DNA of 64,000 bases from Methanoculleus bourgensis MS2 (lineage in GTDB: Archaea > Halobacteriota > Methanomicrobia > Methanomicrobiales > Methanoculleaceae), in contig NC_018227.2 of NCBI RefSeq assembly GCF_000304355.2, positions 1,612,001 through 1,676,000 on the forward strand, written 5' to 3'. The first letter of the stretch is position 1, and the number at the start of each line of letters is the position of its first letter. The notes under the pieces are model-generated. The model saw only the letters and a list, made by a program, of their open reading frames with translations. It was not told the DNA's origin and searched no databases. The translations under genes were made by a program, and so were the position numbers. Shown one piece after another: positions 9,995-33,959 of this stretch.

Positions 9995-10021
9995 TCATCT
10001 CCTCCCATTGATCAATCACGC

Positions 10022-13164: not shown

Positions 13165-13169
13165 CGCTC

Positions 13170-13215
13170 GAACCGCTGACATGCTGGTTAACAACCAGCC
13201 ACTCTACGACTAAGG
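13170..13215 (-). pseudogene. Partial degenerate copy of tRNA-Asn
   Basis: On the minus strand this stretch repeats the D-stem, anticodon arm and variable region of the intact tRNA-Asn that lies 22 bases away. The anticodon arm GCTGG-TTGTTAA-CCAGC still pairs and carries GTT. The T arm is altered and no acceptor stem can be formed. It is either a tandem duplicate that decayed or the leftover attachment site of an integrated element. Confidence 0.7.
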
Positions 13216-13236
13216 AATCGAAGGAAAATAACAGAA

Positions 13237-13309
13237 CGCCGCCAACAGGACTCGAACCTGTGACATGCTGGTTAACAGCCAGCCACTCTACCAACTGAGT
13301 TATGGCGGC
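13237..13309 (-). tRNA. tRNA-Asn (GTT)
   Basis: A 73-nt cloverleaf on the minus strand: acceptor GCCGCCA/TGGCGGC, T8-A9, D arm with GTTGGTA, anticodon arm GCTGG-CTGTTAA-CCAGC with anticodon GTT (plus-strand 13274-13276), and T arm ACAGG-TTCGAGT-CCTGT. The discriminator base is G. CCA is not encoded. Confidence 0.97.
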
Positions 13310-13348
13310 ACAAGGATAAGTGCTCTATAATGTCTTTCCTGAATCGTA

Positions 13349-13672
13349 TTAAAGATTTTGGGAATTCTCCTTCTTGATGGCCTCAAGGAGAGCGATCAGC
13401 TCATCGACCCGCGCCTCCAGGCCCCCGAGAAGATCGGCTGCACGCGCCGTAGCCACCGCACCCGCCGGGGAGGCGCGGATGTAGCCCTCCTGCTCGAGGA
13501 TCCGCAGCGAGTAGCGGACCCGGTGGTAGGGAAGATCCAGGATGTCGGAGAGCTTCATGATACCGATGGGCTGGTACTCCACGACCGCCCGGATCACCTC
13601 AAGATGCCTTGATGCAAGTTCGATCTCGGACTTCAGTTTTGTCAGCATAATATACGCGCTACGGTTGTTCAT
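13349..13672 (-). CDS. Winged helix-turn-helix regulator
   Basis: A 107-residue protein with a helix-turn-helix and wing over about residues 28-75 (LSDILDLPYHRVRYSLRILE, then QEGYIRAS) and a C-terminal leucine-rich helix that could dimerise. I start at ATG 13672, which overlaps the upstream gene by 14 bases and has AAGGT before it. ATG 13648 (MLTKLKSE) is an alternative. It forms an operon with the small membrane protein gene 13659-13892, which it might regulate or sense. Confidence 0.7.
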   Translation of the reverse strand: MNNRSAYIMLTKLKSEIELASRHLEVIRAVVEYQPIGIMKLSDILDLPYHRVRYSLRILEQEGYIRASPAGAVATARAADLLGGLEARVDELIALLEAIKKENSQNL

Positions 13673-13892
13673 GCAGCCAGACCTTTGTCTGGTAATACCA
13701 CTTCCGGAACGAGACCGAGAAGACTGCCCCGACGGCAAGGAGGAAGATGCCGATCCCGAGGCCGAGGGTGCTTGAGGGCGCGAACCGGAAGAGGATGAAG
13801 ACACCCATGGCGAAACAGAGGATGATGATGTTTAACATGACCGTCAGCATGACGAACCTGCCCTTGAAGGCCTTTTTGGCTGCCTCATCCAT
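13659..13892 (-). CDS. Small two-helix membrane protein
   Basis: 77 residues with a positively charged N-terminus (DEAAKKAFKGRF) and two membrane helices (about 14-36 and 43-62), ending in a basic tail WYYQTKVWLHEQP. No known family. It overlaps the regulator gene downstream, and lies divergently from the Xaa-Pro dipeptidase gene. Confidence 0.65.
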   Translation of the reverse strand: MDEAAKKAFKGRFVMLTVMLNIIILCFAMGVFILFRFAPSSTLGLGIGIFLLAVGAVFSVSFRKWYYQTKVWLHEQP

Positions 13893-13951
13893 TATTCATA
13901 CTTGATCGTGGTGGTAAAAGTACTTGTGGTTTCAACAGAAGAGTTGATAAA

Positions 13952-19320: not shown

Positions 19321-20136
19321 CTAACCTGACGGGACCTCGTGGCCCCGTGCGCCGGGATAACCCTCCGTGCTGGAGCGCCCGACGGGGCGGGGGTGGTCCC
19401 GGTGCTCGTTGAGGAAACCCCGGGCACCGGCGGAGAGCCTGTAGCGGAAGGGTCTCTCCTCCCGATCGGCGGTGACGATTCCTTCGGCCTCGAACTGCTG
19501 CATGTGCTGAGAAACCGTCGGGCCGGAGAGCCCGAGGTCTTCTGCGATCTCGTTTCGGGTTGCGCCCGGCGACCTGAGAAGGTGTGCAAGTATCGCCCCC
19601 GGGGTCTCGTCCCGGAGGTTGGCGATGATGCGCTTCTCGAGGGCGGTATACCGCTGGTTTCGTGCAAAGTGCCTGGCGCGGTTCCGGTAGTCCACGGCGG
19701 CCACCTTGCCTTCCCGGATGAGCACGTCAAGGTGGTAGCGGAGCCGCCCTCGCGATGCACCTGTCAGATCCCGGAGTTCTGTGGTCCCGGCGCCCGGATT
19801 GGTGGTGATCTGCCGGTAAAGGTCGCGCCTGAAGTCGTCGTCGAGGACGTTGTGGCGCATCACCCGCCGGAACCCGAGCGGCAGGAGGAGGCTGAGCGCG
19901 TAGAAGAGTTCCCCCATATAGGGGAGCCCGGGCAGGACCGTGAGCAGGAAGTAGAGGGTCATCACCCGGGGCGGGAGATCCCAGAACGTGATCTCCTCGA
20001 GGTCGTGCCACTCGCCGGTGTACTCCTCCGTCACCGGCTCGACCACGTAGCGGGCCGTTGCCGTGCCCGGGAGCAGGAGGGCCGCAAGGGTCACGGCAAC
20101 GAGAAGAAAGGAGAATACCCGGCTCCACCGCGCCAT
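19321..20136 (-). CDS. Membrane-anchored double winged-helix regulator (module 1)
   Basis: 271 residues. Order: signal-like helix (about 5-28), a short external stretch beginning RYVVEPVTEEYTGEWHDLEE, a membrane helix region (about 55-85), then two winged helices in the cytoplasm. Wing 1 covers NPGAGTTELRDLTGASRGRL with RYHLDVLIREGKV, wing 2 SPGATRNEIAEDLGLSGPTV with SQHMQQFEAEGIV. It probably turns an external signal into transcription control. ATG 20136 is the likely start; in-frame upstream starts exist. It lies 47 bases after the gene for a small secreted protein; the same pair recurs at 32030-33299. Confidence 0.75.
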   Translation of the reverse strand: MARWSRVFSFLLVAVTLAALLLPGTATARYVVEPVTEEYTGEWHDLEEITFWDLPPRVMTLYFLLTVLPGLPYMGELFYALSLLLPLGFRRVMRHNVLDDDFRRDLYRQITTNPGAGTTELRDLTGASRGRLRYHLDVLIREGKVAAVDYRNRARHFARNQRYTALEKRIIANLRDETPGAILAHLLRSPGATRNEIAEDLGLSGPTVSQHMQQFEAEGIVTADREERPFRYRLSAGARGFLNEHRDHPRPVGRSSTEGYPGARGHEVPSG

Positions 20137-20183
20137 GCTGGATCGTCGCCGGAAGAGGAGTTCAACGTTTCGATCTTCCACCG

Positions 20184-20627
20184 TTAGGACGTTAGTATTG
20201 TGTAATCCGGGGTGCCGATCACCCTGTCCCCGTAGATCTCGAACCGCCATGTCCCGGGGTGCAGGCCGACAGAGTCCTTTATGCGCAGGTAGATCCTTCC
20301 GTTCACGGCGTCGTATGCGTCAGAGTATGGCCCGATCGCGGCGCCCGGCGCGTACACCGTCATCCGAAGCGAGTTAGACGCGTCGCCCCGGTTCAGGTCG
20401 ATGATGAGTTCCGTTGTGCCTGCGGCAACATTGGTCGAGTACCAGTCCGTCTCGCCCCGTGCGATGCTGCCGGCGATCATCGGAATAAATGGTGGGTTAT
20501 CTTCAGTTATCGTCTCCCGGGCCGGGGTTACGATGTAGTTGTGTTCTCCGGTCTCCTGCGCCGCTACTGTCGGGACCAGCAGCACCGCGGAGGTCATAAT
20601 ACCTGTTGCGATTCTGCAGAGTCTCAT
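20184..20627 (-). CDS. Secreted beta-sandwich protein, PPC-like (module 1)
   Basis: 147 residues with a signal peptide (CRIATGIMTSAVLLVPTVAA) and a body resembling the bacterial pre-peptidase C-terminal (PPC) beta fold: SIARGETDWYSTNVAAGTTE, LRMTVYAPGAAIGPYSDA and GTWRFEIYGDRV. It is homologous to the product of 32030-32521 (GPYSDA/GPYHDG, GTWRFEIYG/GTWKFLIFG). It is the first gene of a pair with the membrane regulator and may be its external sensing partner. That role is inferred from the repeated pairing. Confidence 0.7.
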   Translation of the reverse strand: MRLCRIATGIMTSAVLLVPTVAAQETGEHNYIVTPARETITEDNPPFIPMIAGSIARGETDWYSTNVAAGTTELIIDLNRGDASNSLRMTVYAPGAAIGPYSDAYDAVNGRIYLRIKDSVGLHPGTWRFEIYGDRVIGTPDYTILTS

Positions 20628-20766
20628 AGTGCATCGTAAAGGAGTATCTAAAACATCTATATCCCTTTTACAGCCACTGCAACTACATGCCGTGCGATAC
20701 GTAGCTGCGGTGGCCGTAAACTATATTGAACCCTGTTCCCTGACAGAAGAGCATGGATGCCTGATC

Positions 20767-20904
20767 GGTATCCCGCGGGGGCCGGGTGTCTCGATTGGCG
20801 TCGTGCCCCGGCCCCCACCGCGTGCCCGGAGGGCAATGGGGTTGTTGGCGCCCGGAAGTGATAGCCGTTGCGGCTCCATGGCCGCCGGGATACGCACAAA
20901 GGAG
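20767..20904 (+). repeat. Upstream repeat, copy A (right part)
   Basis: Nearly identical for about 80 bases to 29481-29560, starting GGTATCCCGCGGGGGCCGGG and running through CCCCCACCGCGTGCCCGGAG. Weaker similarity continues to the ribosome-binding site of the following gene. Copies or parts of the same unit lie at 25286-25350, 29405-29620 and 31960-31997, each upstream of an exported or membrane protein gene. Confidence 0.8.
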
Positions 20905-20914
20905 AATAAGAACC

Positions 20915-21745
20915 GTGAATCCTAGACATCTCTTTGGAATCAGCATCCTCGTCGCGGCGCTGTTGATCGTCGGCGCAATCTTTGCGCTGGCGGTAAGTGC
21001 AGAGGCAGTTCTTTCTGCGAGTACTGCTCAGGAAACACTGCGAATAGCCCCCAATAGTTCAGGGATGTCTGAAGATGAATTCATGGCCTATGCCGGGAGA
21101 ATGGAGCAGAGATACGGACCGGAGGCCGTGAGCGCATTAAGACTGCACATTCCTTACGAAACCCGGGGTTCGTCCCCGGAGCCTGCTATGACGCCGAATA
21201 TCCGGTATGTATCGGCATGGAACGGTAGTCTGGAGGTCAGGAACGATGACGGCGTGGTTCTGGCCAGCTCCGACAATGCACTGGTCCTCTATGCGCTCGA
21301 TCTGACCGACGAAGAGGGTAGAGAACATTACTACTGGTGGCAGTGGGGCGCTGCGCAAAACCGTGAAGATATCTGGATGGGAGATGCCTCAAACCTTCGG
21401 AACTTCTGGAGCCGGGTAGAGTTCGAGAACTCTTCATCTAACCTCTTGATCTACGCCCCCGACTCGGATATCTATGGCACTGAAGATACAGTTACATTAC
21501 GGTTTGGCCTCGAGTTTCCGGGACCGGATTGCCACAGCATCAGCAGGGACTTCGTGCTCCACCAGGGCAAGATCAGACCGAAACCTGGTGAATGCCGGGT
21601 GGGAAGCGCCGGAAAGTATGCGGTCGACTGGGTTGGAAATCATGAAGGGACGCAGTCTATCTATGGTATCTGTGAAGAGAGGCGGGAGAACAGTACGGGT
21701 TCGGCTGTTCTATGGACGTATTGCCTGACGACAAGTCAGTTTTAG
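20915..21745 (+). CDS. Membrane-anchored exported protein of unknown function
   Basis: 276 residues from GTG 20915, with AAAGGAG 10 bases before. One N-terminal membrane helix (about 8-30) is followed by a beta-rich exported part, containing NIRYVSAWNGSLEVRNDDGV and Trp/Tyr-rich EHYYWWQWG. No family recognised. It is preceded by repeat copy A, and starts the plus-strand envelope cluster that continues into the ABC-2 permeases. Confidence 0.65.
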   Translation: MNPRHLFGISILVAALLIVGAIFALAVSAEAVLSASTAQETLRIAPNSSGMSEDEFMAYAGRMEQRYGPEAVSALRLHIPYETRGSSPEPAMTPNIRYVSAWNGSLEVRNDDGVVLASSDNALVLYALDLTDEEGREHYYWWQWGAAQNREDIWMGDASNLRNFWSRVEFENSSSNLLIYAPDSDIYGTEDTVTLRFGLEFPGPDCHSISRDFVLHQGKIRPKPGECRVGSAGKYAVDWVGNHEGTQSIYGICEERRENSTGSAVLWTYCLTTSQF

Positions 21746-21850
21746 GGACGGCACGAGACTGATGGCGCGAGGATGTGCTTCCCGCTCCGGGTTTTCGGGG
21801 CTCCGAATCCGGGACCGTCTGCGTCCCCAACCTTCCCGGGAGCGTGAAGT

Positions 21851-22873
21851 ATGATCGGCGACAATCCATCCCCGACCCGGAGCAACCGGTCGACCGGCAG
21901 CGGTCTGCTGATGGTGGCACGCAAGGAGTTCACCGACCACCTGACGAGCCGGACGTTTCTTCTCTTTGCGGTCCTGCTCCTCGTGGTCTGCATCATCCCG
22001 TTCCAGCAGGGTCTTGCCGGCTACCACGCGAAGGCTCAGGCGTACGCCGAGGGTCCCATCATCACCCCGTGGGGTGTCGAGGAATTTGGCTCCGTCCCGC
22101 CTGCTGCCGCGGACGTCTACTCCGGCCTCCCGCGGGCGGCGTTCTCGACCACAGGGGCGATCCTGGCGATCGCCATGGGGTTCGACCTCGTCTCGCGGGA
22201 GTGGCAGACCGGCTCGCTCAAGTTGCTCCTCGTCCGGCCGGTCTTCCGGGACCAGATCATCACCGGCAAGGCGCTGGGGGGCCTTTTTGCCCTGACGACG
22301 CTCGTCTTTGCCGGGCTTGCCGTCTCGCTGGGGGTCCTCCTCGTTGAGGGGATCGTGCCCGACTCGGACGCCCTGATCTCGATCCTGCTCTTTGCGCTCG
22401 CAACGGTTGCGTTCCTGGCGTTCTACTTCAGCCTCGCCCTGACGATCTCGACGGTGGTGCCCCGGACCGGGAAGGCTTTCTTATACGCGTTGGTCGCGTT
22501 CTTCGTCTTTACCGCCCTTGTCCCGACAGTGGGAGTAGTTGCAAAGGACGTCGTTGTCGGGGCTCACCCACTCCCGGGTGCGAGCCCCGCCGAACGAGAA
22601 GACTACCAGGCCCGGCTCGAACTGGTAGAGAGCGTCGCGACGTTTTTTTCGCCGCAGTGGAACTACGAACTGGTTGCAACGAGCGCTCTTGAACCGCGGC
22701 TCGCCGCTTACGGGTTCATCGGGGGCTCCGCAGCATATCTTCCCTACGACGTGACGGCACACCCGGCGGATGCTTTCGCGCGGTTCTGGCAGAACGTGCT
22801 GGTCCTCTTCATGGCGCCGCTCGTGCTCTATGGTATCGCTTTCCTCGCGTTCCAGAGGATGGATGTCCGGTGA
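21851..22873 (+). CDS. ABC-2 type permease 1
   Basis: 340 residues with six predicted membrane helices and a large external loop between helices 1 and 2 and another before the last helix. Shared motifs with the two other permeases of this window: VARKEFTDHLTSRTFL near the N-terminus, GFDLVSREWQTGSLKLLL and PVFRDQIITGKALGG, and a final helix ending FQRMDVR. This is the NosY/ABC-2 group, which needs a partner ATPase; none is encoded beside it. ATG 21851 is used; an internal ATG (VARKE region) is possible. Confidence 0.82.
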   Translation: MIGDNPSPTRSNRSTGSGLLMVARKEFTDHLTSRTFLLFAVLLLVVCIIPFQQGLAGYHAKAQAYAEGPIITPWGVEEFGSVPPAAADVYSGLPRAAFSTTGAILAIAMGFDLVSREWQTGSLKLLLVRPVFRDQIITGKALGGLFALTTLVFAGLAVSLGVLLVEGIVPDSDALISILLFALATVAFLAFYFSLALTISTVVPRTGKAFLYALVAFFVFTALVPTVGVVAKDVVVGAHPLPGASPAEREDYQARLELVESVATFFSPQWNYELVATSALEPRLAAYGFIGGSAAYLPYDVTAHPADAFARFWQNVLVLFMAPLVLYGIAFLAFQRMDVR

Positions 22874-22880
22874 TGTGCCG

Positions 22881-23897
22881 ATGACGATCGACCTCTCCCG
22901 TGTGGCGATTATCGCACGTAAGGAGTTCGCCGACCACCTCACCGACCGGACGTTCCTCCTGATGCTTGTGCTCTTCGGCATCCTGACGGTCCTTGCCCTG
23001 GAGCAAGGTCTTGCCGGTTACACGAGAGCGATGGAGTGGTATGTGACCGTTCTGGAGAGAACAGCGCATTCTGTTTCATCAGAAGCATCGCTGCTCACGT
23101 CCTCCCCCAACCTCCCGTCAGTGCTGTGGATCTTCCTGAGCGTGGGGAATACACTCCTCATCTTCGGGCCGGTTCTCGCGATTGCCGTGGGGTTCGACCT
23201 CATCTCCGGCGAACGTTCGACCCGGTCGCTCCGGACGCTCCTCTCCCGACCGGTCTATCGTGATGAGGTCATCACCGGCAAGGCCGTGGGCGGCACCGCC
23301 GTGCTGGTGCTCGCATCCGTCGTGCCGTACCTCCTGGCGCTGGGTGCGGTGCTCGTCGCCGGGCTCACTATTACGCCGTACGATGCGATGATCGTAGCGC
23401 TCTGCTGGGGTGCCGGAGTCCTCTACCTGCTTGCATACTTCGGCGTCGCCGTTGCGTTCTCCGCATTCAGCGAAGACGGCGGTCGGGCGCTTGCCTGGGC
23501 GATGGCGATCTTCATCCTCTTCTCGACGATTGTGCCGGCCGTTGCAGAGGATACGGCAAGATCCGCCGCCGGCCCCATCCCCGAATGGCCGCCGGATGAC
23601 GCCCCGCCGGACGAGATACAGCGATACCTGGAGGAGCGGAGCAGTTACTACGCGACGTACAACGGTGTCAGAAACACAATCCTGACGCTCAGCCCCAACG
23701 GCAACTATGAGACGCTGATACAGATGCTGGCCGATCTCCATCACGGCGGGGACACGGCGGGGGGAGCCGTTGCGGAACTACCCGGTCTTGATGAAGTGCT
23801 GGGCCGGTTCTGGCAGAATATCGTCGGCCTCATCGCATTCCCAACGATCTTCCTCGCCGTCGCCTATGTGCGGTTTATGCGGATCGACCTGCGGTAG
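22881..23897 (+). CDS. ABC-2 type permease 2
   Basis: 338 residues, paralogue of permease 1: IARKEFADHLTDRTFLLMLV, GFDLISGERSTRSLRTLL, PVYRDEVITGKAVGG, terminal FMRIDLR. Six membrane helices, with an acidic Pro-rich external loop (EWPPDDAPPDEIQRYLEERS). ATG 22881 follows the stop of permease 1 by 7 bases with GGTGAT before it; ATG 22863 would overlap. The two could form a heterodimeric membrane part of an exporter. Confidence 0.82.
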   Translation: MTIDLSRVAIIARKEFADHLTDRTFLLMLVLFGILTVLALEQGLAGYTRAMEWYVTVLERTAHSVSSEASLLTSSPNLPSVLWIFLSVGNTLLIFGPVLAIAVGFDLISGERSTRSLRTLLSRPVYRDEVITGKAVGGTAVLVLASVVPYLLALGAVLVAGLTITPYDAMIVALCWGAGVLYLLAYFGVAVAFSAFSEDGGRALAWAMAIFILFSTIVPAVAEDTARSAAGPIPEWPPDDAPPDEIQRYLEERSSYYATYNGVRNTILTLSPNGNYETLIQMLADLHHGGDTAGGAVAELPGLDEVLGRFWQNIVGLIAFPTIFLAVAYVRFMRIDLR

Positions 23898-23919
23898 CGA
23901 TCCGATTCAGGGTGAAATA

Positions 23920-25152
23920 ATGGCAAAAAACAAGAATATTCCGATGAAACAACTCATGATACTCACAAACATCGTGCCTGCCGCGCTCCTGGCAGCCCTC
24001 GTGCTCACCGCGGGGTGTGCGTACCACTTTGGAAATGAGGATGCGCAGGATATCGCTGTCATCCGGGTGGATGCGTCCGGTGCCGAGATGTGGAAGCATA
24101 CCATCGACAGTGGCTTTGGAGGAGGCTTTGAGGCAATACTATCGGTGGCTCCGACGCCCGAAGGCGGCGTCTTTGTTTCACATTACTACCTCTATCCTCC
24201 CAGTTCTCATCCGGATAAGATCCACTGGACCACGTGCATCGGGGCCGACGGGAGCGTTGTCTGGGATAGGGACTTCTCCTCAAATTTTAAATTGATGACC
24301 CCGACGCCGGACGGCGGGTTCATCGGCATCACCGAGTTCGGCTCCAGTGTTGTGCGTGTCGGCCCGGACGGCAGCCCGGTATGGACGATCAATCAGACGA
24401 CGATTGCAGATATCCTGCCGAAATCCCGCAAAGACCGCTACAATACACCCCAGTTTAACACCGTCGTTCCGGTCGGTCCCGACAGATATGTTATTGCAGG
24501 CAATCTCTGGGTCTCGTCGTGGAGTTTCATGGCTACGATCGACGGGTCGGGGGAGATCACGGAGGCAAAAAAATTCACCGACCACCTGTCCATTGGAAAC
24601 CTTGCACCGATGCCGGACGGCGGGTGGGTTGTGGTCGGAGGTGGGCAGGTGTCGCGGTTGCGTCCGAACGATAAGGTTCGCTGGACGAAGACGTTCTGGC
24701 AGGCTCCCGACGACCTTCCGGAGAACGTCACGATAGGAGGGCCGTGGGTTCGCGGGTTCCAGGTGAAGGACGGAGAGATCCGGGTTCTCTTCGTGGTATC
24801 GGTATCCCGGGTGGATGAAGCGACCGCCATGATCTACGGTGTGGACGAAGCGACCGCTGTGACCTACGGAGACGACGGCACGGTGCTCGGGGAGGTGCAT
24901 ATGGAGGTCCCGCAAAGTTGCCCCATAACCCTTGCTGCCGACGGGGGGTATGCCTTTGCCGCGCTTGAAAGCGATGAGCCCGGAACATACGGACCTCTGT
25001 CATCGGAAGGGTCGGATGTCCATATCGTGAAGATGGACGCCGATGGGAACCCGGAGTGGGACCGCACCGTCAGGGGCCCGGTGATCCGGATCGAGACGAT
25101 CAGCGCGGTCGAGGACGGAGGATACATCCTGGGGGTGGATCTCAGGCGATAG
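23920..25152 (+). CDS. Lipoprotein with beta-propeller-like repeats
   Basis: 410 residues. The lipobox LVLTAGC (Cys about residue 33) indicates a lipid-anchored external protein. The body has repeated blades of the PQQ/outer-membrane-protein-type propeller: APTPEGGVFVSH, TPTPDGGFIGITEFG, APMPDGGWVVVGGG and AVEDGGYILGV, mostly preceded by a GxxxW strand. A 60-base tandem duplication lies at 24811-24870. It is 22 bases after permease 2 and probably co-transcribed, so it may bind the permeases' substrate or a partner. Confidence 0.75.
   Translation: MAKNKNIPMKQLMILTNIVPAALLAALVLTAGCAYHFGNEDAQDIAVIRVDASGAEMWKHTIDSGFGGGFEAILSVAPTPEGGVFVSHYYLYPPSSHPDKIHWTTCIGADGSVVWDRDFSSNFKLMTPTPDGGFIGITEFGSSVVRVGPDGSPVWTINQTTIADILPKSRKDRYNTPQFNTVVPVGPDRYVIAGNLWVSSWSFMATIDGSGEITEAKKFTDHLSIGNLAPMPDGGWVVVGGGQVSRLRPNDKVRWTKTFWQAPDDLPENVTIGGPWVRGFQVKDGEIRVLFVVSVSRVDEATAMIYGVDEATAVTYGDDGTVLGEVHMEVPQSCPITLAADGGYAFAALESDEPGTYGPLSSEGSDVHIVKMDADGNPEWDRTVRGPVIRIETISAVEDGGYILGVDLRR
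24811..24870 (+). repeat. In-frame 30-bp tandem duplication
   Basis: Two copies of a 30-base unit, 24811-24840 and 24841-24870, encode VDEATAMIYG and VDEATAVTYG inside the propeller lipoprotein. The copies differ at only a few bases, so the duplication is recent. It lengthens a loop by 10 residues without breaking the frame. Confidence 0.85.
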
Positions 25153-25285
25153 GTGTCTATCCATCTTCTCAGACGCCATGCCGACCGATGAGTTGGAGGC
25201 TGAGGTCAGCCCCCTCGGGATATCCCCCCATCTCCATACCAGGAGATACACTCCCTCTCCGGCAAGAATCGCGGTTCGAACCCCC

Positions 25286-25350
25286 GGCGACAGCTCAACG
25301 CGCCGGAGAGAAACGTTATGGGGCGCAACGCCAAAATCTCGATTGGTGAT
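25286..25350 (+). repeat. Upstream repeat, copy B (left part)
   Basis: Matches the left part of copy C: GGCGACAGCTCAACGCG, then GGAGAGAAACGTTATGGGG and CTCGATTGG. It ends about 18 bases before the ATG of the next gene. Compared with 29405-29470 only a few bases differ. Confidence 0.75.
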
Positions 25351-25367
25351 TTCCCGGACTGATAGTC

Positions 25368-26264
25368 ATGACAGAACAAATCAGCCAAAGAACCCTTACC
25401 GTCCTCCTGGGCCTGGCCGTCTTCCTTACCCTCTCGGTCCTGTGCAGTCTCCTCCTCGTTCTCGGCACCGGCGGTCCTGGTGCCTCGGCAGCAGCGTTCA
25501 CCCTCCTCCTGGGAGGAATTCTCATGCTCCTGATCCTCCTAAGATACCGGAAGTACGGGTATCGACCGGGGCCCGCTCTGCTCGCGGTCGTCATCGGATG
25601 CGCCGGTGCGCTCCTGGCAATCCTCGGCGTTCTTACCCTAGGCCTTGCCTGGGCTGATGTCAACCCTGCCACCTACACCTACCAGGTCACGGTCACCGGG
25701 CTTGAGAACTATACTGGCGGTCCTGTCACCGACATCCTGCTTCCACTCCCGCTTCGTGAGGGGGAGATGATCTTCTCCGAAGAAGACCTCGAAGGGCAGC
25801 GCGTTGGAGCCTGGAAGACCCTCTTTGCAGAGACACCGAAGGGAAGGATGCTTGCCTTCGAGACCATGGAGCGCGATCTCTCGGATATCAGCGCGACCTT
25901 TGGGAGTCCGGCGGAGAAGTACTTCCTCATCGATGATATAACCCGAGAATCCTTCAGCCCGGTCGTCGCCGAGGCACCGGCCGGGTATACCAGGTGGGCC
26001 TTCGGGACCGGGGATGTTCAGCATTTTACCACCCTGGTCAGGCTCGATGAGGGGATCAGGCCTAAGACTGCTGATGCCGGGCCGATCGTCATCCACCTCC
26101 GGATCACCGCAGGCGGCGGACGTCTCCATGGCATCACCGGGGAGAAGTACCAGGTCGAGGTCTATGAGGCGATTCCTCCCGGTGTCACCGGCTTTGTCCC
26201 GGTGAGGGCACAGGTGGCCAGGTTCGGGGATGCGGGGATCGTGCCGGTGAGAGATACGCGCTGA
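25368..26264 (+). CDS. Membrane protein with three helices and an exported domain
   Basis: 298 residues: three membrane helices in the first 95 residues (about 12-34, 42-60, 68-92), then a beta-rich soluble domain with YTYQVTVTGLENYTGG and ITGEKYQVEVYEAIPPG. An NYT sequon sits in the domain, in keeping with an external location. No family recognised. It follows repeat copy B and precedes a small membrane protein and an M28 peptidase. Confidence 0.65.
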   Translation: MTEQISQRTLTVLLGLAVFLTLSVLCSLLLVLGTGGPGASAAAFTLLLGGILMLLILLRYRKYGYRPGPALLAVVIGCAGALLAILGVLTLGLAWADVNPATYTYQVTVTGLENYTGGPVTDILLPLPLREGEMIFSEEDLEGQRVGAWKTLFAETPKGRMLAFETMERDLSDISATFGSPAEKYFLIDDITRESFSPVVAEAPAGYTRWAFGTGDVQHFTTLVRLDEGIRPKTADAGPIVIHLRITAGGGRLHGITGEKYQVEVYEAIPPGVTGFVPVRAQVARFGDAGIVPVRDTR

Positions 26265-26363
26265 AAGGAACCCTGCCCGGGCACATAATCTCATCTCCAT
26301 GGTCTTCGAGCCCACAAAAGGGAAGGAACTGCAAATGATGATTATCCAATGAGGTGATGAACA

Positions 26364-26636
26364 ATGGATCGCACACTATCTGAAAAGTTCTGGGGAGAGA
26401 ATCTCTTTGGAATCTCGTACCTAACAGCCCGCACATTCCTCTTGGCGCTGCTCTCCGCAGCGGTTGGGATGCTGTTTGTGGGCCTGGGTGCCCGGGGGAT
26501 GGCTATCCCGTCTGACTACTGGTGGATACCTCTCCTTCGTGCGCACCCGCTCCATTATATTAGCATCGGTATCGGATTCGTCTTTCTAGCATCCTCGCTT
26601 TATCTCGTCCGGTCGTGCTTCAAGGAGATCCCATGA
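26364..26636 (+). CDS. Small two-helix membrane protein
   Basis: 90 residues with two membrane helices (about 22-44 and 63-83) and a basic C-terminus RSCFKEIP. GAGGTGA lies 6 bases before ATG 26364. It overlaps the peptidase gene by 4 bases (ATGA), so the two are translationally coupled; a role as membrane partner of the peptidase is possible but unproven. Confidence 0.65.
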   Translation: MDRTLSEKFWGENLFGISYLTARTFLLALLSAAVGMLFVGLGARGMAIPSDYWWIPLLRAHPLHYISIGIGFVFLASSLYLVRSCFKEIP

Positions 26637-28129
26637 ATCCGAAACGTATCTTCGGCATCTGTGTCCTGTTCGTGGCGCTGCTACCCCTGCCCGCCTGTGC
26701 TGGTGATGCAGGTACCCTTGCCGGGACCATCGGGGTGCTCACCGACTACCAGCGGGTTCCCGGGCTGGACGACGGGGCGGCCGCAGACTACATCGCCGGC
26801 AGGCTGGAGGAGTATGGGTATACCGTGCATGAAGAGCCTTTTTTCGTCGAAACGGACGCGGGACCGGCCACGACCCGGAACGTCGTCGGTATTAAGGATG
26901 GCTCCGCTTCGGGGATTGTCATCGTATGCGCACACTACGACGCCTACGGTCCCGACTGTCCGGGAGCGGACGACAACGCCGCCGGGGTTGCCGTGATGCT
27001 TGAGGTCGCACGGGCGCTCCGGTCGGAGCCTCTGGACCGGTCGGTCTGCTTCATCGCCTTCTCCGGCGAGGAGGTCGGGCTGCAGGGGAGCGCCGACTGG
27101 CTGGACCGCCACGCGGACCTTGCCGGGGATATCATCGCGGCCGTCAACCTCGACTGCGTTGCACGCGGCGACGAACTCCGCGTTGAGACCCTCCCCCAGT
27201 ACCACTGGATACTGGACACCGTCCCTGAATCTCCGGCGATCAACCATCTGATTGGATCGAGTCTCGGGGGCGACCACTGGCGCTTCTGGGAGCACCATAT
27301 CCCCGCCGCCCTGATAACCGACAACAGCGGCTACACCCTGCGGCATACCCGGAACGATACCCCCGAGACCCTGAACCTCTCCCTGGCGGCGTCCTGCACC
27401 GAAGCGGTGACCGGCATGGTCCGGACCCTTGCCGCCGCAGACGACACGACACCCCCGGCAGTGGAAGGGTCGGTCGAGGAGGACGGGACGATCCGGTACA
27501 CCGTCTCCGAACCCGCGGTTACGCATCTCATCATCGATGGGACCGACTTTGGCGTCCTCGCATCAGGGCAGGTCATCCTCCCGCCGGGCCCGCATACCGT
27601 CCGGGTCATCGCCTACGATGCGGCCGGGAACCGGGGCGTCCTGGACCAGGAGGCCGACGTGCCCGGTACCGGCCGCGACACCCCCGGGTCCGACCATCAA
27701 CCAGGGGGCATCAGCATCCCCTGGAAGCGGACGGAAGAAGACCGCGAGAAGTATGGTATGCAGCAGTACGGCATCCCGTTTGTCTCCCTCTCCTACGACG
27801 GCCCGGGAGAGGAGGAGATCAGGACCCGAGCCGACGGTTACGTGGACGGCATCCGGATCTCCGGGCTTGAGGGGGGCCATACCATTATCCATGCCCCGGG
27901 GCTCCACCGCTACGAGGTGGCGGCGGTCGCTGGCGGGGATGTCGTAGGGCATGACGAGACGACGTATCTCGTCAGACGATTGTATGACGACCCTATGCGT
28001 TACTACATCCAGAACAGCGCTGTGCGGGAGGCACAAGCCCCCGAGGACCCGCTCCCCCTGGTCCCGGTCGCATGCACGGTCGCCGCCTCGCTCCTTGCCG
28101 TCGGGTACCTCATCTCGCGGAGGCGGTAG
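26633..28129 (+). CDS. Secreted M28 family aminopeptidase
   Basis: 498 residues: signal peptide (1-21), M28 peptidase domain, a beta domain, and a C-terminal membrane helix followed by SRRR. Zinc ligands are complete: His in CAHYDAYG, Asp in PGADDNAAG, Glu pair in SGEEVGLQG, Asp in VNLDCVARG and His in RHTRNDTPE. It should release N-terminal amino acids from peptides at the outer face of the membrane. AAGGAG lies 5 bases before ATG 26633. Confidence 0.88.
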   Translation: MNPKRIFGICVLFVALLPLPACAGDAGTLAGTIGVLTDYQRVPGLDDGAAADYIAGRLEEYGYTVHEEPFFVETDAGPATTRNVVGIKDGSASGIVIVCAHYDAYGPDCPGADDNAAGVAVMLEVARALRSEPLDRSVCFIAFSGEEVGLQGSADWLDRHADLAGDIIAAVNLDCVARGDELRVETLPQYHWILDTVPESPAINHLIGSSLGGDHWRFWEHHIPAALITDNSGYTLRHTRNDTPETLNLSLAASCTEAVTGMVRTLAAADDTTPPAVEGSVEEDGTIRYTVSEPAVTHLIIDGTDFGVLASGQVILPPGPHTVRVIAYDAAGNRGVLDQEADVPGTGRDTPGSDHQPGGISIPWKRTEEDREKYGMQQYGIPFVSLSYDGPGEEEIRTRADGYVDGIRISGLEGGHTIIHAPGLHRYEVAAVAGGDVVGHDETTYLVRRLYDDPMRYYIQNSAVREAQAPEDPLPLVPVACTVAASLLAVGYLISRRR

Positions 28130-28167
28130 CAGAATGAACGATCATATGACACACAAGAGGTAATGGT

Positions 28168-29169
28168 ATGGCAGCAGAACAAGTCTTCACCGTGGCCGGG
28201 AAGGAGTTCACCGACCACCTCACCAGCCGGAAATTCCTGGTGATCCTTGCGTTGCTCCTGATGTTTGCCCTGCTCGGCATGCACCAGGGGATCGACCAGT
28301 ACAACAAGAACCTCGAGTCGTATAACCAGCAGTTACAGGAAGCGGGAGATTCCGCAGGACCCGGCATGATGCCTGAGCGGCCGTCGATCCTCTCCGTCTT
28401 CGGGTATCTGGTCAGCTCCCTGATACCGTTCGGAGGAATGCTCGCGATCGCGACCGGGTTTGACCTGATATCAAAGGAGAAGGAGTCCCGGTCGCTCAAA
28501 ACCCTCCTCTCGCATCCGGTCTACCGGGACGAGGTCATCAACGGCAAGGCGCTCGGCGGGGTTGCGGCTCTCGGGGTTGCCCTCGTCACCGCGTTCGCTC
28601 TCACTCTTGCCGTGCTCCTCGTCTGCTCGATCGTGCCGACGGCGGGCGAGGTTGTCGCGATCGGGGTCATCGGGTTTGCCTCGCTCCTCTATCTGCTGGC
28701 GTTCTTTGCCCTTGCTCTCGCCCTCTCGGTCGTCACAAAGGAGAGCGGGCATGCGGTGATCTACGGCCTGGCGCTCTTCTTCGCTATCGCCTTCCTGCTG
28801 CCGACCTTCGGGACCGTTCTCGGGGACGTGGTCGCTGGCGACCCGCCGCAGAGACCAGAGATGCCGGTGACCGTGGACGGGCGTCCAGTTGATGAAGCGG
28901 TATGGATGGCCTACGAGGAGGAGTGCAGGCAGCATACCGGGGAAATGGAGGAATACCGGGGCAGACGACAGGTGGTCACTGATACGGTCAACCTCTTCTC
29001 CCCAATAGTGAGTTATCATGCGGTGGTCTGGCCGGTCGCCGATCCTTCGGGTATGCCGCCGGAAGATGCCGCGGGCCAGATCTGGCGGGGTGTTGCGGCG
29101 TTGGTCGTCTTTTCGTCGGTCTTCTTTGCTGTCGCCTACGGGAAGTTTATGCGGATGGATATCCGATGA
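28168..29169 (+). CDS. ABC-2 type permease 3
   Basis: 333 residues with the same signature as permeases 1 and 2: AGKEFTDHLTSRKFLVILAL, GFDLISKEKESRSLKTLL, PVYRDEVINGKALGG and a terminal FMRMDIR. Six helices with a charged external loop rich in Glu and Arg (ECRQHTGEMEEYRGRR). It follows the M28 peptidase by 38 bases and is probably in the same operon. No ATPase gene accompanies it. Confidence 0.82.
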   Translation: MAAEQVFTVAGKEFTDHLTSRKFLVILALLLMFALLGMHQGIDQYNKNLESYNQQLQEAGDSAGPGMMPERPSILSVFGYLVSSLIPFGGMLAIATGFDLISKEKESRSLKTLLSHPVYRDEVINGKALGGVAALGVALVTAFALTLAVLLVCSIVPTAGEVVAIGVIGFASLLYLLAFFALALALSVVTKESGHAVIYGLALFFAIAFLLPTFGTVLGDVVAGDPPQRPEMPVTVDGRPVDEAVWMAYEEECRQHTGEMEEYRGRRQVVTDTVNLFSPIVSYHAVVWPVADPSGMPPEDAAGQIWRGVAALVVFSSVFFAVAYGKFMRMDIR

Positions 29170-29404
29170 GGGCGGAGAGCGGCCCACCTTGCGCGCATCT
29201 CCCCTCTAACGAGGGGCCGCGCCAAAGACGGGTCAATGGTATCGCCGGATCTCGATATCAGCGGGATGTGTACAGGGTTCAGGTCGGCGTGTGTTCTCAA
29301 ACCCGTGAGATGGTGATCAGGGTCGGTTTCGACTGGAGATCGGCCGCCCCACTCATGCATCGGACTCTTCACTGCTATTTTGGGAGATCCGGCGGGCCTG
29401 AGCC

Positions 29405-29620
29405 GCGGCGACAATTCAACGCGATGGAGAGAAACGTTATGGGGAGCAACGCCGAAGTCTCGATCGGCGATACCGCACGCGGTATCCCGCGGGGGCCGGG
29501 TGTCTCGATTGGCGTCGTGCCCCGACCCCCACCGCGTGCCCGGAGGGCAATAGGGTTGTGGCTGTCATCAAGGATAGTCGTTGCGGTTCTGTGGCCTCCC
29601 GGGGCATGCAAATACGGAGG
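29405..29620 (+). repeat. Upstream repeat, copy C (complete unit)
   Basis: The most complete copy. Its left part (29405-29470) matches copies B and D, with GACAATTCAACGCGATGGAG, and its right part (29481-29620) matches copy A. It ends at the ribosome-binding site of the small secreted protein gene. The unit could be a duplicated promoter/leader block or a decayed small mobile element. Confidence 0.8.
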
Positions 29621-29628
29621 TCGAGTAG

Positions 29629-29826
29629 ATGGAGCAAAGAATCAAAATGCGGCCACTCCCCTTACTCATAGTGGTGCTGTTAATGGCTGCGGTGGTGCCT
29701 GCAAGCGCGTACTACTACTGTTGCGCAGAGTGGGGAAATAATTATAGTAATAATCCGGATTTCGAAAATTCAAATTTAGACTGCAACGAGGAAAATGCAA
29801 AGGGATTTTTTGAGGTGATCAGATGA
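29629..29826 (+). CDS. Small secreted protein
   Basis: 65 residues: signal peptide (about 1-27, ending VVPASA) and a short mature part, YYYCCAEWGNNYSNNPDFEN, that is rich in Tyr, Asn and Cys. CGGAGG lies 8 bases before ATG 29629. The stop overlaps the next gene by ATGA. Codon use at the 3' end is more AT-rich than in the neighbours. No family recognised. Confidence 0.6.
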   Translation: MEQRIKMRPLPLLIVVLLMAAVVPASAYYYCCAEWGNNYSNNPDFENSNLDCNEENAKGFFEVIR

Positions 29827-30785
29827 ATATAAAACAAATTGGGATAAGCGCCGGAATCCTTGCGCTCCTGGGAGTACTCTGTGCCATTGGCATACCCCTG
29901 CTTCTCAGCGACGGGCATGCACCCGGCGCTGACCATTCCAACCTGACAGGCAGCATGAAATCGGGGAGTACCACAAACCTCACCTACACCCTCTCTGCTG
30001 CGTTCCCATCAACGCCTGAGACGGTCGTCCTGTACCGGGTGGTGGAACCGGAGATCACGACAGAACTCGTCTCAGCGATGGCTGAGAAGATGGGCCTGGA
30101 AGGAACGATCCGCGAGTCGCATGACCAGATCCTGCTCTCCGACGACCCCTACTCACTGGAAGTCCATACGAGGTCAGGACGCGTTGCCCTGATCGATCTT
30201 CCTCGCTGGATGAACCCAAACGGCAACGATCTGCCGGAAAACCTCCCCTCAGATGATGAGGCGGTCGGAATCGCAACCCGGTATCTTGAGAAGACCGGTC
30301 TGATGCCCCCCGGTGCAGTCCTCTCTGGCATCGAGCACCCCCGGATCGTTGAGTACGACGAGAACGGTGAAGAGATCGGCATCGCCTTTGAGGATGTTCA
30401 GGTCTCCTACTCCCGCACAATCGACGGCCGGCTGGTTGTCGGCTCGAAACTGACGGTTGAGATCGGCGACGGCGGGGATATCCTGAACGTCTACAAACTC
30501 TGGAGGGACTGCACCCCGGAGAAGGAGATAGCGGTCATTCCGCCGCAGGAGGCGTTTGAAGAATTAAAGGCCGCCGGGGTAGCGGCTGACACAGAGGGCC
30601 AGACCGTGGTTATCACCGGGATCGAACCTGGCTACTATGAAGCATCGGCGATGGATGAACCTGCCTACCTCATCCCGGTCTACATCTTCACCGGTGAGGT
30701 GCGGGATGGGACCGCGAAGACTCCGTTTGTCAGGTATATCCCCGCGTGCCCTGACCTTCGGGAGGAGATCCCGGCGGTGAAGTGA
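29823..30785 (+). CDS. Membrane-anchored exported protein, unknown
   Basis: 320 residues with an N-terminal membrane helix (about 9-28) and an external domain with an early NLT sequon and SGSTTNLTYTLS. The later part (SYSRTIDGRLVVGSKLTVEI, then GDGGDILNVYKLWR) resembles two-lobed YycI/PepSY-like folds, but no firm family can be given. Coupled to the upstream small protein by ATGA. Confidence 0.6.
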   Translation: MNIKQIGISAGILALLGVLCAIGIPLLLSDGHAPGADHSNLTGSMKSGSTTNLTYTLSAAFPSTPETVVLYRVVEPEITTELVSAMAEKMGLEGTIRESHDQILLSDDPYSLEVHTRSGRVALIDLPRWMNPNGNDLPENLPSDDEAVGIATRYLEKTGLMPPGAVLSGIEHPRIVEYDENGEEIGIAFEDVQVSYSRTIDGRLVVGSKLTVEIGDGGDILNVYKLWRDCTPEKEIAVIPPQEAFEELKAAGVAADTEGQTVVITGIEPGYYEASAMDEPAYLIPVYIFTGEVRDGTAKTPFVRYIPACPDLREEIPAVK

Positions 30786-30822
30786 CCGCCCCGGTCACCT
30801 TCTATTTTCGGGGTGAGTGCGT

Positions 30823-31392
30823 ATGAAGAAGGTTTTGTATCTTGTCATCGCCTGTGTCGCCGTGGGTGCGCTGATCCTGGTTGGAGCAGATGTACTCTCG
30901 AATCCAGGCCTGCAAGGGGCCGGTAAGGAGATGCCGGGGGAAGTTCCGGAGAGCCAGACGCCTTGTTCGGCAGACGGTCCCCGGGAGGATACTCCCTACA
31001 TCGAGATCCATCGTGCAGGGGGCAGGAGCGTCTTCCTCTATCCAGATGACTCCGGGTATCCTGCCATCGAAGCAGAATGTCGAGAGCAGATCCAGAGCAT
31101 CTCTGGCCAGTATAAGATGGGGTTCTCGTCGGCGGAACTGGAGGCCATGAAACAGAACGGCACCTACGTCGCGATGAACTTCTCGGTTCCCACGACGTTT
31201 GAGACAAGTTATCTCGTTGGTGGGTTGCTGAAGGTGATCACGGTAAACGAAGCGATAATCTTTCTCGATCTCGAAGGCTATCCTGAGACCATGATCATCA
31301 CGCGGGCTGATGATAAATCCGGGGTCTGGGACACATCACGCAACCGCAGGGAACTCCGCGATCTGGTCGCGCCGGTTATGCAGGAGTCGTAG
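30823..31392 (+). CDS. Exported protein, unknown
   Basis: 189 residues with an N-terminal helix (VLYLVIACVAVGALILVGAD) that is either a signal or an anchor. The mature part has an acidic Pro-rich linker and a compact domain ending in VWDTSRNRRELRDLVAPV. GGGGTGA lies 6 bases before ATG 30823. The third gene of a small operon of exported proteins. Confidence 0.6.
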   Translation: MKKVLYLVIACVAVGALILVGADVLSNPGLQGAGKEMPGEVPESQTPCSADGPREDTPYIEIHRAGGRSVFLYPDDSGYPAIEAECREQIQSISGQYKMGFSSAELEAMKQNGTYVAMNFSVPTTFETSYLVGGLLKVITVNEAIIFLDLEGYPETMIITRADDKSGVWDTSRNRRELRDLVAPVMQES

Positions 31393-31578
31393 AACCCGAA
31401 GGATAACGGCTCGGATGCCTGCAGATAATTCTCTCGGGAAGGAGTCGCGAACGAGGGAACGCTGCTCTCACCAGCAGGCACGATCTCCGGCTCGGGTCCG
31501 ACCTCTCCATTACGGTGGATCGTCTGTTCGCCCGGCACTAGTGGAGCATTTCATCTAATATTGTCCATGCAATACCGT

Positions 31579-31657
31579 CTCACGCGAAGGGCGCGAAGCC
31601 GCGAAGTTCGGTTGCTGGGCGGCAGAGTCCCCTTCGCGTTCTTCGCGTCTTCGCGTG
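31579..31657. repeat. Palindromic GCGAAG element 1
   Basis: Left arm CTCACGCGAAGGGCGCGAAG, extended by CCGCGAAG; right arm CCTTCGCGTTCTTCGCGTCT, extended by TCGCGTG. The arms are nearly complementary over about 28 bases with a loop of about 25. Similar elements lie at 45165-45244, 45267-45351, 51671-51754, 51782-51858 and, degenerate, 59608-59670. All are intergenic. Confidence 0.85.
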
Positions 31658-31959
31658 CGGTGGCGATCGCTACTACGCATCAGGACCCGCACCATAAGGT
31701 GAAACGGTCCACTGGTCGATTTTGGTGCGGTACATGCCGAAACCCGGTGCGCCGGCGTACACGCATCACCCCCCACCGCCACCACCGGGCCCGGTAATCG
31801 CCCGGGTTCTGCAATCCCCGGCAATTCGTCCGGTTACCGGTCCCTGGTACCGTTGGCTCGAAGGGGGGCGGTGAGGGTCAATTTCCACTGGAGATGTCCC
31901 TCCCCATCCATATTACCAACATAAACCTTCAATTTGACGATATCAACGGTTCCAACCCC

Positions 31960-31997
31960 CCGATGACAATTCAACGCGATGGAGAGAAAGGTTAAGG
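31960..31997 (+). repeat. Upstream repeat, copy D (fragment)
   Basis: CGATGACAATTCAACGCGAT followed by GGAGAGAAAGGTTAAGG matches the first 38 bases of copy C. It lies 33 bases upstream of the start chosen for the secreted protein of module 2; an in-frame ATG at 31979 is part of the repeat and is therefore not taken as the start. Confidence 0.7.
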
Positions 31998-32029
31998 TCA
32001 GGGACCTGGACGTAATGCGTGGTGATCTC

Positions 32030-32521
32030 ATGAGCGTAGCGAAACGCAGTGAGTACGTTGCAGAAAGAATGCTTCTTGTCGTCCTGCTCATCGCACTCCT
32101 TCTCGTCCCCGGCGCTACGGCCCGGGCCTGCATGCCTGCCACCGGGATTGTGGTAACGCCTGTCGCCGACGTCGGCGACGGCGTGGAGGTCCAGTCGATC
32201 GTCGGCACGATACACCCGGGCGAGTACCAGACCATCGAGAAGCCGGTGCCGACAGGTGTAAGAAGCATTGTGGTCAACCTCGACTGGAGCGGGCACCAGC
32301 ATCCAGGAACCGATTTGCTTACCCTGACCATAACCCTGCCGGGGAGCGCCGCGCTCGGTCCCTACCATGACGGTGCCGACGGGAGGACGGACGAGAAGAT
32401 TGCCCTCACCCTCTCAGGGTCCGATTCCCTGCCGTCTGGCACGTGGAAGTTCCTTATCTTCGGGGAAGACGTTCCGGAGGAGGGAACGGAGTATACGCTG
32501 AATGTCATCTATTACTACTGA
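32030..32521 (+). CDS. Secreted beta-sandwich protein, PPC-like (module 2)
   Basis: 163 residues from ATG 32030 (GGTGAT just before). A signal helix (MLLVVLLIALLLVPGATARA) is followed by a PPC-like domain: GTIHPGEYQTIEKPVPTGVR, LTLTITLPGSAALGPYHDG and SGTWKFLIFGEDV. It is a clear relative of the product of 20184-20627 and is likewise followed by a membrane-anchored double winged-helix protein. Upstream ATGs at 31979 and 32015 are less likely. Confidence 0.7.
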   Translation: MSVAKRSEYVAERMLLVVLLIALLLVPGATARACMPATGIVVTPVADVGDGVEVQSIVGTIHPGEYQTIEKPVPTGVRSIVVNLDWSGHQHPGTDLLTLTITLPGSAALGPYHDGADGRTDEKIALTLSGSDSLPSGTWKFLIFGEDVPEEGTEYTLNVIYYY

Positions 32522-32552
32522 GGGGTGCCGGGCCTCCGTAGGGGGCTGGACC

Positions 32553-33299
32553 GTGCACAGGGCAGCTCTCCTGCTCATATTCCTGGCCCTGCTCGTCCTC
32601 TGGAGCCCGGCAGCGGCGAAGATCATCGTCGAACCAGGCCCCGCCGAACTCCCTACTGATGGGATAAACGTCGACGACGAACGGTTCGTGCCGGTCTGGC
32701 AGGCCTACTCGCCGTTGGAATTCCTCACCATCCTCCTCCTCATCCACTGCCCGCTCCTCGCGATGCCCTTCGAGATCATCTGTTCAGCTGGTGTCCTCGC
32801 GTTCCTCGGCTACCGGACCTCACGCTGTCCCCTGGACAACAAGAAACGGTCCCGGATCTACGCCTGCATCCGGGACCATCCCGGGATCACGCCCACAGAG
32901 ATCGCCCGTGCCACCGGGATCAACCGCGGGACGACCCGCTACCACCTCTCCCGCCTCCGGGAGGCCGGCCTCGTCAGCGCCGTAAACCGGGACGGCAGGG
33001 TGGGCTACTTTCGGCGTGGTTACGATGCAACCTCAAAGACCATCTGCTGTCACCTCAGGAACAATACCCGCCGGGAGATCCTCGCCCTGCTCCTCGACGA
33101 CCCCGGCATCACGCAGTCAGAGATAGCCGACGACACCGGGATCTCCCGCTCTGCGGCTGCCTGGCACCTGCAGAGGCTCGATGCCGACGGGCTCATCGAG
33201 TCTGACCGCGACGGCCGGGCGGTGCGCTACGCGCTCACGGATGAGGCACTCGAGATCTTTGTGGTCCTGGAGCGGGGAGATCACGGCCGGGCGTGCTGA
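32553..33299 (+). CDS. Membrane-anchored double winged-helix regulator (module 2)
   Basis: 248 residues from GTG 32553 (GGGGG 7 bases before). Order: signal-like helix, external stretch starting KIIVEPGPAELPTDGINVDD, membrane helix (about 52-75), then two winged helices: HPGITPTEIARATGINRGTT with RYHLSRLREAGLV, and DPGITQSEIADDTGISRSAA with AWHLQRLDADGLI. It has the same plan as the product of 19321-20136. It would bind DNA from the membrane and respond to an outside cue, perhaps through the secreted partner encoded 31 bases upstream. Confidence 0.75.
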   Translation: MHRAALLLIFLALLVLWSPAAAKIIVEPGPAELPTDGINVDDERFVPVWQAYSPLEFLTILLLIHCPLLAMPFEIICSAGVLAFLGYRTSRCPLDNKKRSRIYACIRDHPGITPTEIARATGINRGTTRYHLSRLREAGLVSAVNRDGRVGYFRRGYDATSKTICCHLRNNTRREILALLLDDPGITQSEIADDTGISRSAAAWHLQRLDADGLIESDRDGRAVRYALTDEALEIFVVLERGDHGRAC

Positions 33300-33532: not shown

Positions 33533-33760
33533 CTATCTCAATAATTTCGTCAGAAATTCCTCACGGGTAAGACCGGCCTGCCGAATGATCGCCCTCAACA
33601 CCCCTCTACCAAGTTCTTCTCCCTGATGATCAGGGATAACAATACTCCTTCCATCAGGATGTTGCAGAATGACATGACTGCCTTTCTGCCGGGCAAAAGA
33701 AAAACCAGATCCTTCCAGTACCTTTATGACCGCTTCAGCCTTGACAGGTCTTAATTTCAA
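33533..33760 (-). CDS. hicA: HicA family toxin
   Basis: 75 residues from TTG 33760: KLRPVKAEAVIKVLEGSGFS followed by ARQKGSHVILQHPDGR, with the catalytic His at about residue 29, and GRGVLRAIIRQAGLTREEF. HicA cleaves mRNA and is held by HicB. The TTG start is chosen because the family begins exactly with M-K-L-P. It overlaps hicB by 26 bases. The order hicB-hicA is the less common one. Confidence 0.85.
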   Translation of the reverse strand: MKLRPVKAEAVIKVLEGSGFSFARQKGSHVILQHPDGRSIVIPDHQGEELGRGVLRAIIRQAGLTREEFLTKLLR

Positions 33761-33959
33761 TCCTCTGAACCCCCACAAACTCTCGTAACTCATCTGGTTC
33801 AGGAGATTCATTGACTTCAAGGTAGAGCGAAATTGCCTCATCAAGCCGCCTGATTAACTCATCATAAGTCTTTGCCTGTGTAAAGCATCCCGGCAGTGAG
33901 GGTATCGAGGCATAGTAGTACCCGTCCTCGTCTTTCTCTATAAGGCAATTGACTTTCAT
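33735..33959 (-). CDS. hicB: HicB family antitoxin
   Basis: 74 residues with the HicB fold: LIEKDEDGYYYASIPSLPGC then FTQAKTYDELIRRLDEAISL. No DNA-binding domain follows, so this is the short HicB type. AT-rich DNA with ATATTATAAAA precedes the ATG at 33959 (minus strand) and no ribosome-binding site is seen, which suggests a short or absent leader. Confidence 0.88.
   Translation of the reverse strand: MKVNCLIEKDEDGYYYASIPSLPGCFTQAKTYDELIRRLDEAISLYLEVNESPEPDELREFVGVQRIEIKTCQG

Follow-up and report, generated by a model that had tools for sequence, protein, structure and literature searches.

How does a regulator in an archaeal membrane learn what happens outside the cell when it has no kinase to tell it? 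The passage of signals across archaeal membranes without a histidine kinase is poorly known, and the question is raised anew by a locus of Methanoculleus bourgensis MS2, in which the gene of a small secreted protein (S) twice adjoins that of a membrane-bound regulator with two winged helices (R). The window, by which we mean the whole stretch of 64,000 nucleotides (nt) analysed here, covers positions 1,612,001 to 1,676,000 of a single-contig genome of 2,789,774 bases; its two pairs are referred to as module 1 (S1 and R1) and module 2 (S2 and R2; Table 1). We consider it likely that the two proteins of each pair together constitute one transmembrane regulator, a co-component system of archaea, with S as its outer sensing half, mainly because the two genes remain adjacent and the outer peptides of their products co-vary.

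Two paralogous pairs in one window

A first-pass annotation, made from the letters of this DNA, had noticed the same secreted-protein/regulator pair at two places, and both are indeed composed of real open reading frames (ORFs), with S1 being paralogous to S2 (33% identity over 92 amino acids (aa), E 4e-9) and R1 to R2 (34% over 216 aa, E 1e-31). The pairs lie where they had been placed, except that 31979 or 32033, rather than 32030, is the start of the S2 frame; the R2 frame overlaps S2 by 20 nt and has an alternative GTG start at 32553. The motifs GPYxD(A/G) and GTW(R/K)FxI(Y/F)G, which had been ascribed to both secreted proteins, are present in their alignment. The regulators, as had been supposed, have a common layout and helix-turn-helix (HTH) pattern: a signal helix, an outer stretch of about 30 residues, a second hydrophobic helix and two winged helices, with winged-HTH family matches in two stretches of each protein. 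Histidine kinase or receiver families are absent among the listed family matches of R1 and R2, in agreement with the claim that the regulators possess neither a kinase nor a phosphate-acceptor domain.

The pairing is conserved across Halobacteriota

The idea of a module had been made to depend on adjacency of the two families in other genomes. When profiles of both families were run over 40 genomes of the host family, 61 of 66 secreted matches had a regulator match directly downstream, on the same strand and 14–189 nt away. At the level of the order, the secreted profile matched 106 of 199 genomes (21 of 38 genera), and at that of the phylum 126 of 394 (44 of 136 genera). Loci fetched phylum-wide, namely from Methanomicrobiales, from families resembling Methanosarcinales and others, and from Archaeoglobaceae, comprised 123 distinct pairs and seven unpaired entries, the latter representing six loci. 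Three of these lie at the end of a contig, another is truncated, its contig also carrying an intact copy; the fifth is a PPC domain in a multidomain protein, and in the sixth 1.1 kb separate the secreted gene from the regulator. Outside the host family, a regulator of the same layout comes next after almost all secreted genes, with an overlap of a few bases in the Archaeoglobaceae loci L192 and L239; Methanoregula, Methanoculleus and Archaeoglobaceae are among the members that can be named. The Methanosarcina-like genome G503 contains S matches at C1:1810662–1810958 and 1834853–1835329. Adjacency, gene order and orientation of the pair are thus kept across orders of Halobacteriota, and the pairing is, as far as sequence can tell, well established.

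Two other explanations of these data were rejected. That adjacency merely reflects the inheritance of a single operon within a single genus is ruled out by the loci outside the family and outside the order, and an apparent S-R fusion, suggested by regulator frames of 770–885 aa, dissolved since the called genes are of ordinary length and the long frames are apparently GC-rich DNA that happens to lack stop codons. A scan with degenerate patterns, for which the broad alignment was too divergent, returned 12 loci with one pattern from a narrower alignment and sets no bound on the distribution. In locus L091 (4603–6240, minus strand), a 545-aa repeat protein carries a PPC domain of the same type at its C-terminus and lacks a paired regulator. 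Locus L235 of genome G206 holds two near-identical modules about 9.4 kb apart (3179–4483 and 12593–13897), each close to ABC-2 permeases, which suggests a recent duplication.

The genome of M. bourgensis itself encodes two more full-length regulators besides R1 and R2. Together with a secreted partner gene 12 nt upstream, the regulator gene at 415 kb constitutes a third intact pair, which is divergent from an ABC ATPase gene; upstream of the regulator gene at 55.7 kb, the partner gene has decayed, with GDDGRNPDGQIHFGIPNPVPGLWKFKVCGEDV still legible in its last ~45 codons. All four regulators of the genome therefore have, or had, an upstream partner. Beside the 415-kb module (locus L012) lie two further ORFs (6133–6780 and 9624–10100), the first resembling small multidrug exporters, the second starting like an ABC-2 permease (MARKEFSDHLRSRNF) and then repeating a segment of the first; this repetition suggests recombination or gene decay.

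Cognate outer peptides resemble each other

Upon alignment of the mature N-termini, both S and R were found to tend to start with a GYxVxP-type strand, as in the cognate proteins of loci L156 (S KIIETKSGYVVRSGYDVENS, R KIIQVRNGYVVTSAYGENLS) and L134 (S AGYTVRPSVSDAP, R SGYTVRPSQNIGK). Among cluster representatives, the mean local alignment score of the outer peptides was 25.2 for cognate combinations, compared to 20.8 for non-cognate ones. Since the clusters are related, the associated probabilities are indicative only: 20,000 permutations yielded no value as high as the observed one, also after normalisation of rows and columns, and of 57 clusters, 40 carry the motif in both partners, 6 in neither and 11 in only one (Fisher p 0.006). 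A smaller set gave the same result for cognate peptides. Where S is devoid of the motif, as in Archaeoglobaceae, R often lacks it too. The distances of S and R correlate as well (r 0.41, against a permutation maximum of 0.21). That likeness is greater within pairs than between them suggests that the pair-specific outer peptides represent a co-evolving contact or a homotypic strand.

Topology of the regulators and fold of the secreted protein

Whether the N-terminal helices of the regulators span the membrane had been a further point on which the module idea hung. Topology was assessed by hydropathy and charge, using one regulator from each of 57 clusters, and both helices are predicted in all of them: one hydrophobic segment at the N-terminus and another ahead of the winged helices (in 56 of 57 when a stricter threshold is applied). 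An AxA-like site follows the first segment in 52 clusters, and in 55 the inner flank of the second segment has more Lys/Arg than the outer one, as expected for positive-inside orientation. In R1, prolines interrupt the second segment (VMTLYFLLTVLPGLPYMGELFYALSLLLPLGF), which the model renders, at low confidence, as two short helices. The R1 winged helices were modelled well, with a predicted local distance difference test score (pLDDT) of 80–92; against the PDB, the model yielded only generic double winged-helix matches. The outer stretch of R1 alone came out as unstructured, at low confidence, which would fit a peptide that becomes ordered upon binding.

For the secreted protein, S1 matches the Pfam PPC family (PF04151) with 26.9 bits at a cut-off of 25.9, S2 has no significant Pfam match, and 9 of 21 diverse S proteins match PPC at E 0.01. 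The AlphaFold2 model of S1 (mean pLDDT 76) is all-β with good confidence in the core, and includes, at moderate confidence, a strand at residues 29–35 (HNYIVTP) as part of the predicted β-structure. Its best Foldseek matches in the PDB are PPC domains of subtilases (KP-43, Tk-SP), a domain of the ColG collagenase and GOLD domains (TM-score about 0.5, best E 1.4e-4). The predicted fold of S is thereby a PPC-like β-sandwich. Unlike the pre-peptidase C-terminal domain for which the Pfam family is named, it makes up a secreted protein by itself, and its link is to a regulator rather than to a peptidase.

Genes between the modules

The permeases, lipoprotein and peptidase that the first-pass annotation had seen between the modules are present as three ABC-2 permeases, a PQQ-repeat protein with an LTAGC lipobox and an M28 peptidase, accompanied by small secreted or membrane proteins (Table 1); an ABC ATPase gene is absent from the interval. 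ABC-2 genes are found near modules more often than expected in three of eight genomes, namely G000 (3 of 9, 0.17 expected), the Methanoculleus genome G007 (6 of 10, 0.25 expected) and G206 (4 of 26, 0.18 expected), the others having no link or a single case. In G007, two outward-facing modules likewise surround ABC-2 permeases. A universal link to ABC-2 exporters was discarded, no such gene lying near the modules that were listed for G065, G092 and G228.

An element of ~80 nt upstream of S2 recurs before two genes of the cluster, the three copies being 63–81% alike. Its core has five matches in the genome at ≤3 mismatches, and all three exact ones fall within this stretch; the region upstream of S2 is conserved in S2 orthologues, with second copies in two related loci. 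The element may serve as a promoter or operator common to these genes, or may stem from the duplication of a segment. Of the shared operators proposed upstream of the genes at 20.9–31.4 kb, the repeated element is thus found, its role as an operator being that of a candidate. The proposal that the intervening genes are targets draws indirect support from this element and from the ABC-2 enrichment.

A second 80-nt repeat, 98% identical between its copies at 20766–20845 and 29480–29559, is located inside the envelope cluster. Beside module 2, at 33533–33959 on the minus strand, small overlapping ORFs resemble HicA/HicB toxin-antitoxin genes, as judged by eye only, and a HicB-like ORF also adjoins module 2 in locus L111 (9998–10222).

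Table 1. Modules, intervening genes and repeated elements, in window coordinates
Feature	Position	Strand	Description	Evidence or remark
R1	19321..20136	-	271-aa membrane-bound regulator with signal helix, short outer part (ARYVVEP...), another hydrophobic stretch and two winged helices	
S1	20184..20627	-	Secreted protein, 147 aa, predicted PPC-like β-sandwich; mature N-terminal strand HNYIVTP	ORF, Pfam, AlphaFold2, Foldseek
ABC-2 permease	21851..22873	+	Possible target	PF12679, 122 bits
ABC-2 permease	22881..23897	+	Possible target	PF12679, 140 bits
PQQ-repeat protein	23920..25152	+	Lipobox LTAGC; possible target	
~80-nt element, copy	25271..25350	+	Upstream of 25368-26264	
Membrane protein	25368..26264	+	Three N-terminal hydrophobic helices and outer domain	Relatives near other modules
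M28 peptidase	26633..28129	+	Secreted, membrane-anchored; possible target	PF04389, 107 bits
ABC-2 permease	28168..29169	+	Possible target	PF12679, 171 bits
~80-nt element, copy	29392..29471	+	Upstream of 29629/29823	
Secreted or membrane-anchored protein	29823..30785	+	No family assigned	
~80-nt element	31947..32026	+	Upstream of S2; putative promoter or operator with core TCAACGCGATGGAGAGAAAGGTTA	
S2	31979..32521 (or from 32033)	+	S1 paralogue, secreted, 162-180 aa by start; mature start ...TGIVVTP	
R2	32502..33299	+	R1 paralogue, membrane regulator, 248-265 aa; outer stretch KIIVEP...	

Discussion

The first-pass annotation had suggested membrane signalling that dispenses with phosphotransfer and employs a separate sensor. 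The module itself is strongly supported, and such signalling fits the lack of a kinase or receiver match; physical binding, the sensing and its stimulus, the sign of regulation and the DNA targets are what we infer. In such a system, the small protein S would be exported and would fold into a PPC-type β-sandwich outside the membrane, and R would be inserted so that its short N-terminal peptide faces outwards, a single hydrophobic and perhaps kinked segment crosses the membrane, and two winged helices lie inside. S would dock on the outer peptide of R, most likely via the common GYxVxP-type strand. The state of S, be it a ligand, an envelope polymer or its mere amount, would then alter how the winged helices are paired or exposed and thereby, without any phosphotransfer, the transcription of nearby export and envelope genes. 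A bolder version, tentative and on balance unlikely, is that the GYxVxP-type peptide of R completes the β-sandwich of S in trans, in competition with the N-terminal strand of S itself, so that a ligand-dependent exchange outside would switch the tandem winged helices inside; this would represent an ancestral archaeal signalling class across Halobacteriota.

The same gene arrangement would result if R were autonomous and the secreted PPC protein, possibly associated with the surface or S-layer, were its main regulated product, adjacent as a target rather than as a sensor. Regulators often stay linked to adjacent targets, PPC domains elsewhere bind polymers or assist secreted enzymes, and a clade of 12 regulators does live without S. 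However, this explanation accounts neither for the almost invariable position of S immediately upstream across Halobacteriota nor for the strand that S and R have in common in their outer peptides and that co-varies within pairs; we regard the explanation as distinctly improbable. The common strand could instead be a processing or sorting signal for a third protein, such as a peptidase, a chaperone or an anchoring enzyme, making contact between S and R unnecessary. Its position directly after the signal peptide in both proteins would fit, but a general signal should show no greater likeness within pairs than between them, and the strand belongs to the predicted β-structure in the S model, leaving little room for this explanation. 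It is somewhat unlikely, finally, that the modules bracket the cluster by chance and regulate only themselves, the intervening genes being unrelated, which would be compatible with S as the outer half of R: modules occur elsewhere with other neighbours, and ABC-2 permeases accompany them in some lineages only, yet outward-facing modules around ABC-2 permeases recur in G007, and an excess of these genes near modules is seen in G000, G007 and G206.

Several observations weigh against S as the sensing half of R. The partner is not always needed, because the 12-member clade, from Methanoculleaceae, has no detectable upstream partner. Regulators beside decayed partners keep open frames. All models are of single chains, and the outer and membrane part of R1 is of low confidence (pLDDT 32–60). 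The permutation test on the peptides treats related clusters as independent, and gene pairs travelling together would also yield correlated trees. We had considered the partnerless regulators as general counter-evidence to the pairing and set them aside, as part of them have partners, intact or decayed, that had been missed by gene calling, and most others belong to one clade. Initially, 41 distinct regulators had been classed as unpaired; upstream of about 17 of them lies a strong match to the secreted family, and half of the remainder make up the Methanoculleaceae clade. Both deep branches of the tree of regulators, a quick, midpoint-rooted reconstruction with many weak forks, contain pairs, which fits an old association with losses. 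In the partnerless clade (L068–L073, L080–L089), several genes are divergent from that of another single- or multi-helix membrane protein.

In its organisation, the S/R pair recalls the co-component systems of bacteria, VtrA/VtrC, ToxR/ToxS, TcpP/TcpH, PsaE/PsaF and GrvA/FidL (PMC9214523), in which the gene of a membrane-anchored winged-helix regulator also adjoins that of a separate extracytoplasmic partner, the outer parts evolve fast, and phosphotransfer is not involved. The arrangement, however, is reversed. Regulators of the VtrA/VtrC type have an N-terminal HTH, a transmembrane helix and a C-terminal periplasmic domain; R is predicted to be a type I protein with a signal helix, a very short N-terminal outer peptide, a transmembrane segment and two winged helices. 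The co-component partner is a membrane-tethered lipocalin-like barrel encoded downstream of the regulator, whereas S is apparently a soluble PPC-like β-sandwich, encoded upstream in every pair counted. As to an obligate heterodimer of the outer parts, which belongs to the VtrA/VtrC type, the co-variation of the S and R peptides lends indirect support. We found no sequence relation of S or R to the bacterial proteins and, given the reverse topology, the upstream partner and the different fold, do not count the pair as a member of these systems; our best reading is an analogy, similar in function and unrelated in fold.

Among archaeal proteins, R resembles the transmembrane transcription regulators (TTRs), which combine a DNA-binding domain and at least one transmembrane segment in one protein, of which the second segment of R1, hydrophobic and kinked, is a less clear example. 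According to the available part of a TTR survey, Methanomicrobia are enriched in TTRs, and associated proteins are named there for bacterial TTRs only, with neither PPC nor signal peptides mentioned (PMC10269533). R is also similar to ArnR/ArnR1 and other archaeal membrane-bound HTH regulators of surface structures, for which the accessible portions of the respective papers describe no secreted PPC partner (PMC6396743, PMC4858521); the HTH of ArnR/ArnR1 is N-terminal (PMC13286277), while the winged helices of R are C-terminal. From two-component systems, R1 and R2 are set apart by having no histidine kinase or receiver match. Papers on CsmR and HVO_0163 describe systems other than the S/R pair, and in the open literature, subscription journals lying outside our coverage, we found no published description of it.

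What is new here is that a GYxVxP-type strand opens both mature proteins, with a likeness specific to the pair. Transmembrane regulators have been counted in archaea and we found no described partner for them; S provides a partner family defined by sequence in about a third of the sampled Halobacteriota genomes, including Methanosarcina-like ones, in which genetics is possible, and the common strand offers a concrete contact hypothesis that can be tested by mutation. The two-gene unit is widespread in methane-making archaea and their relatives, and the matching outer ends of its products suggest that the two may act jointly in carrying signals from outside the cell to its genes.

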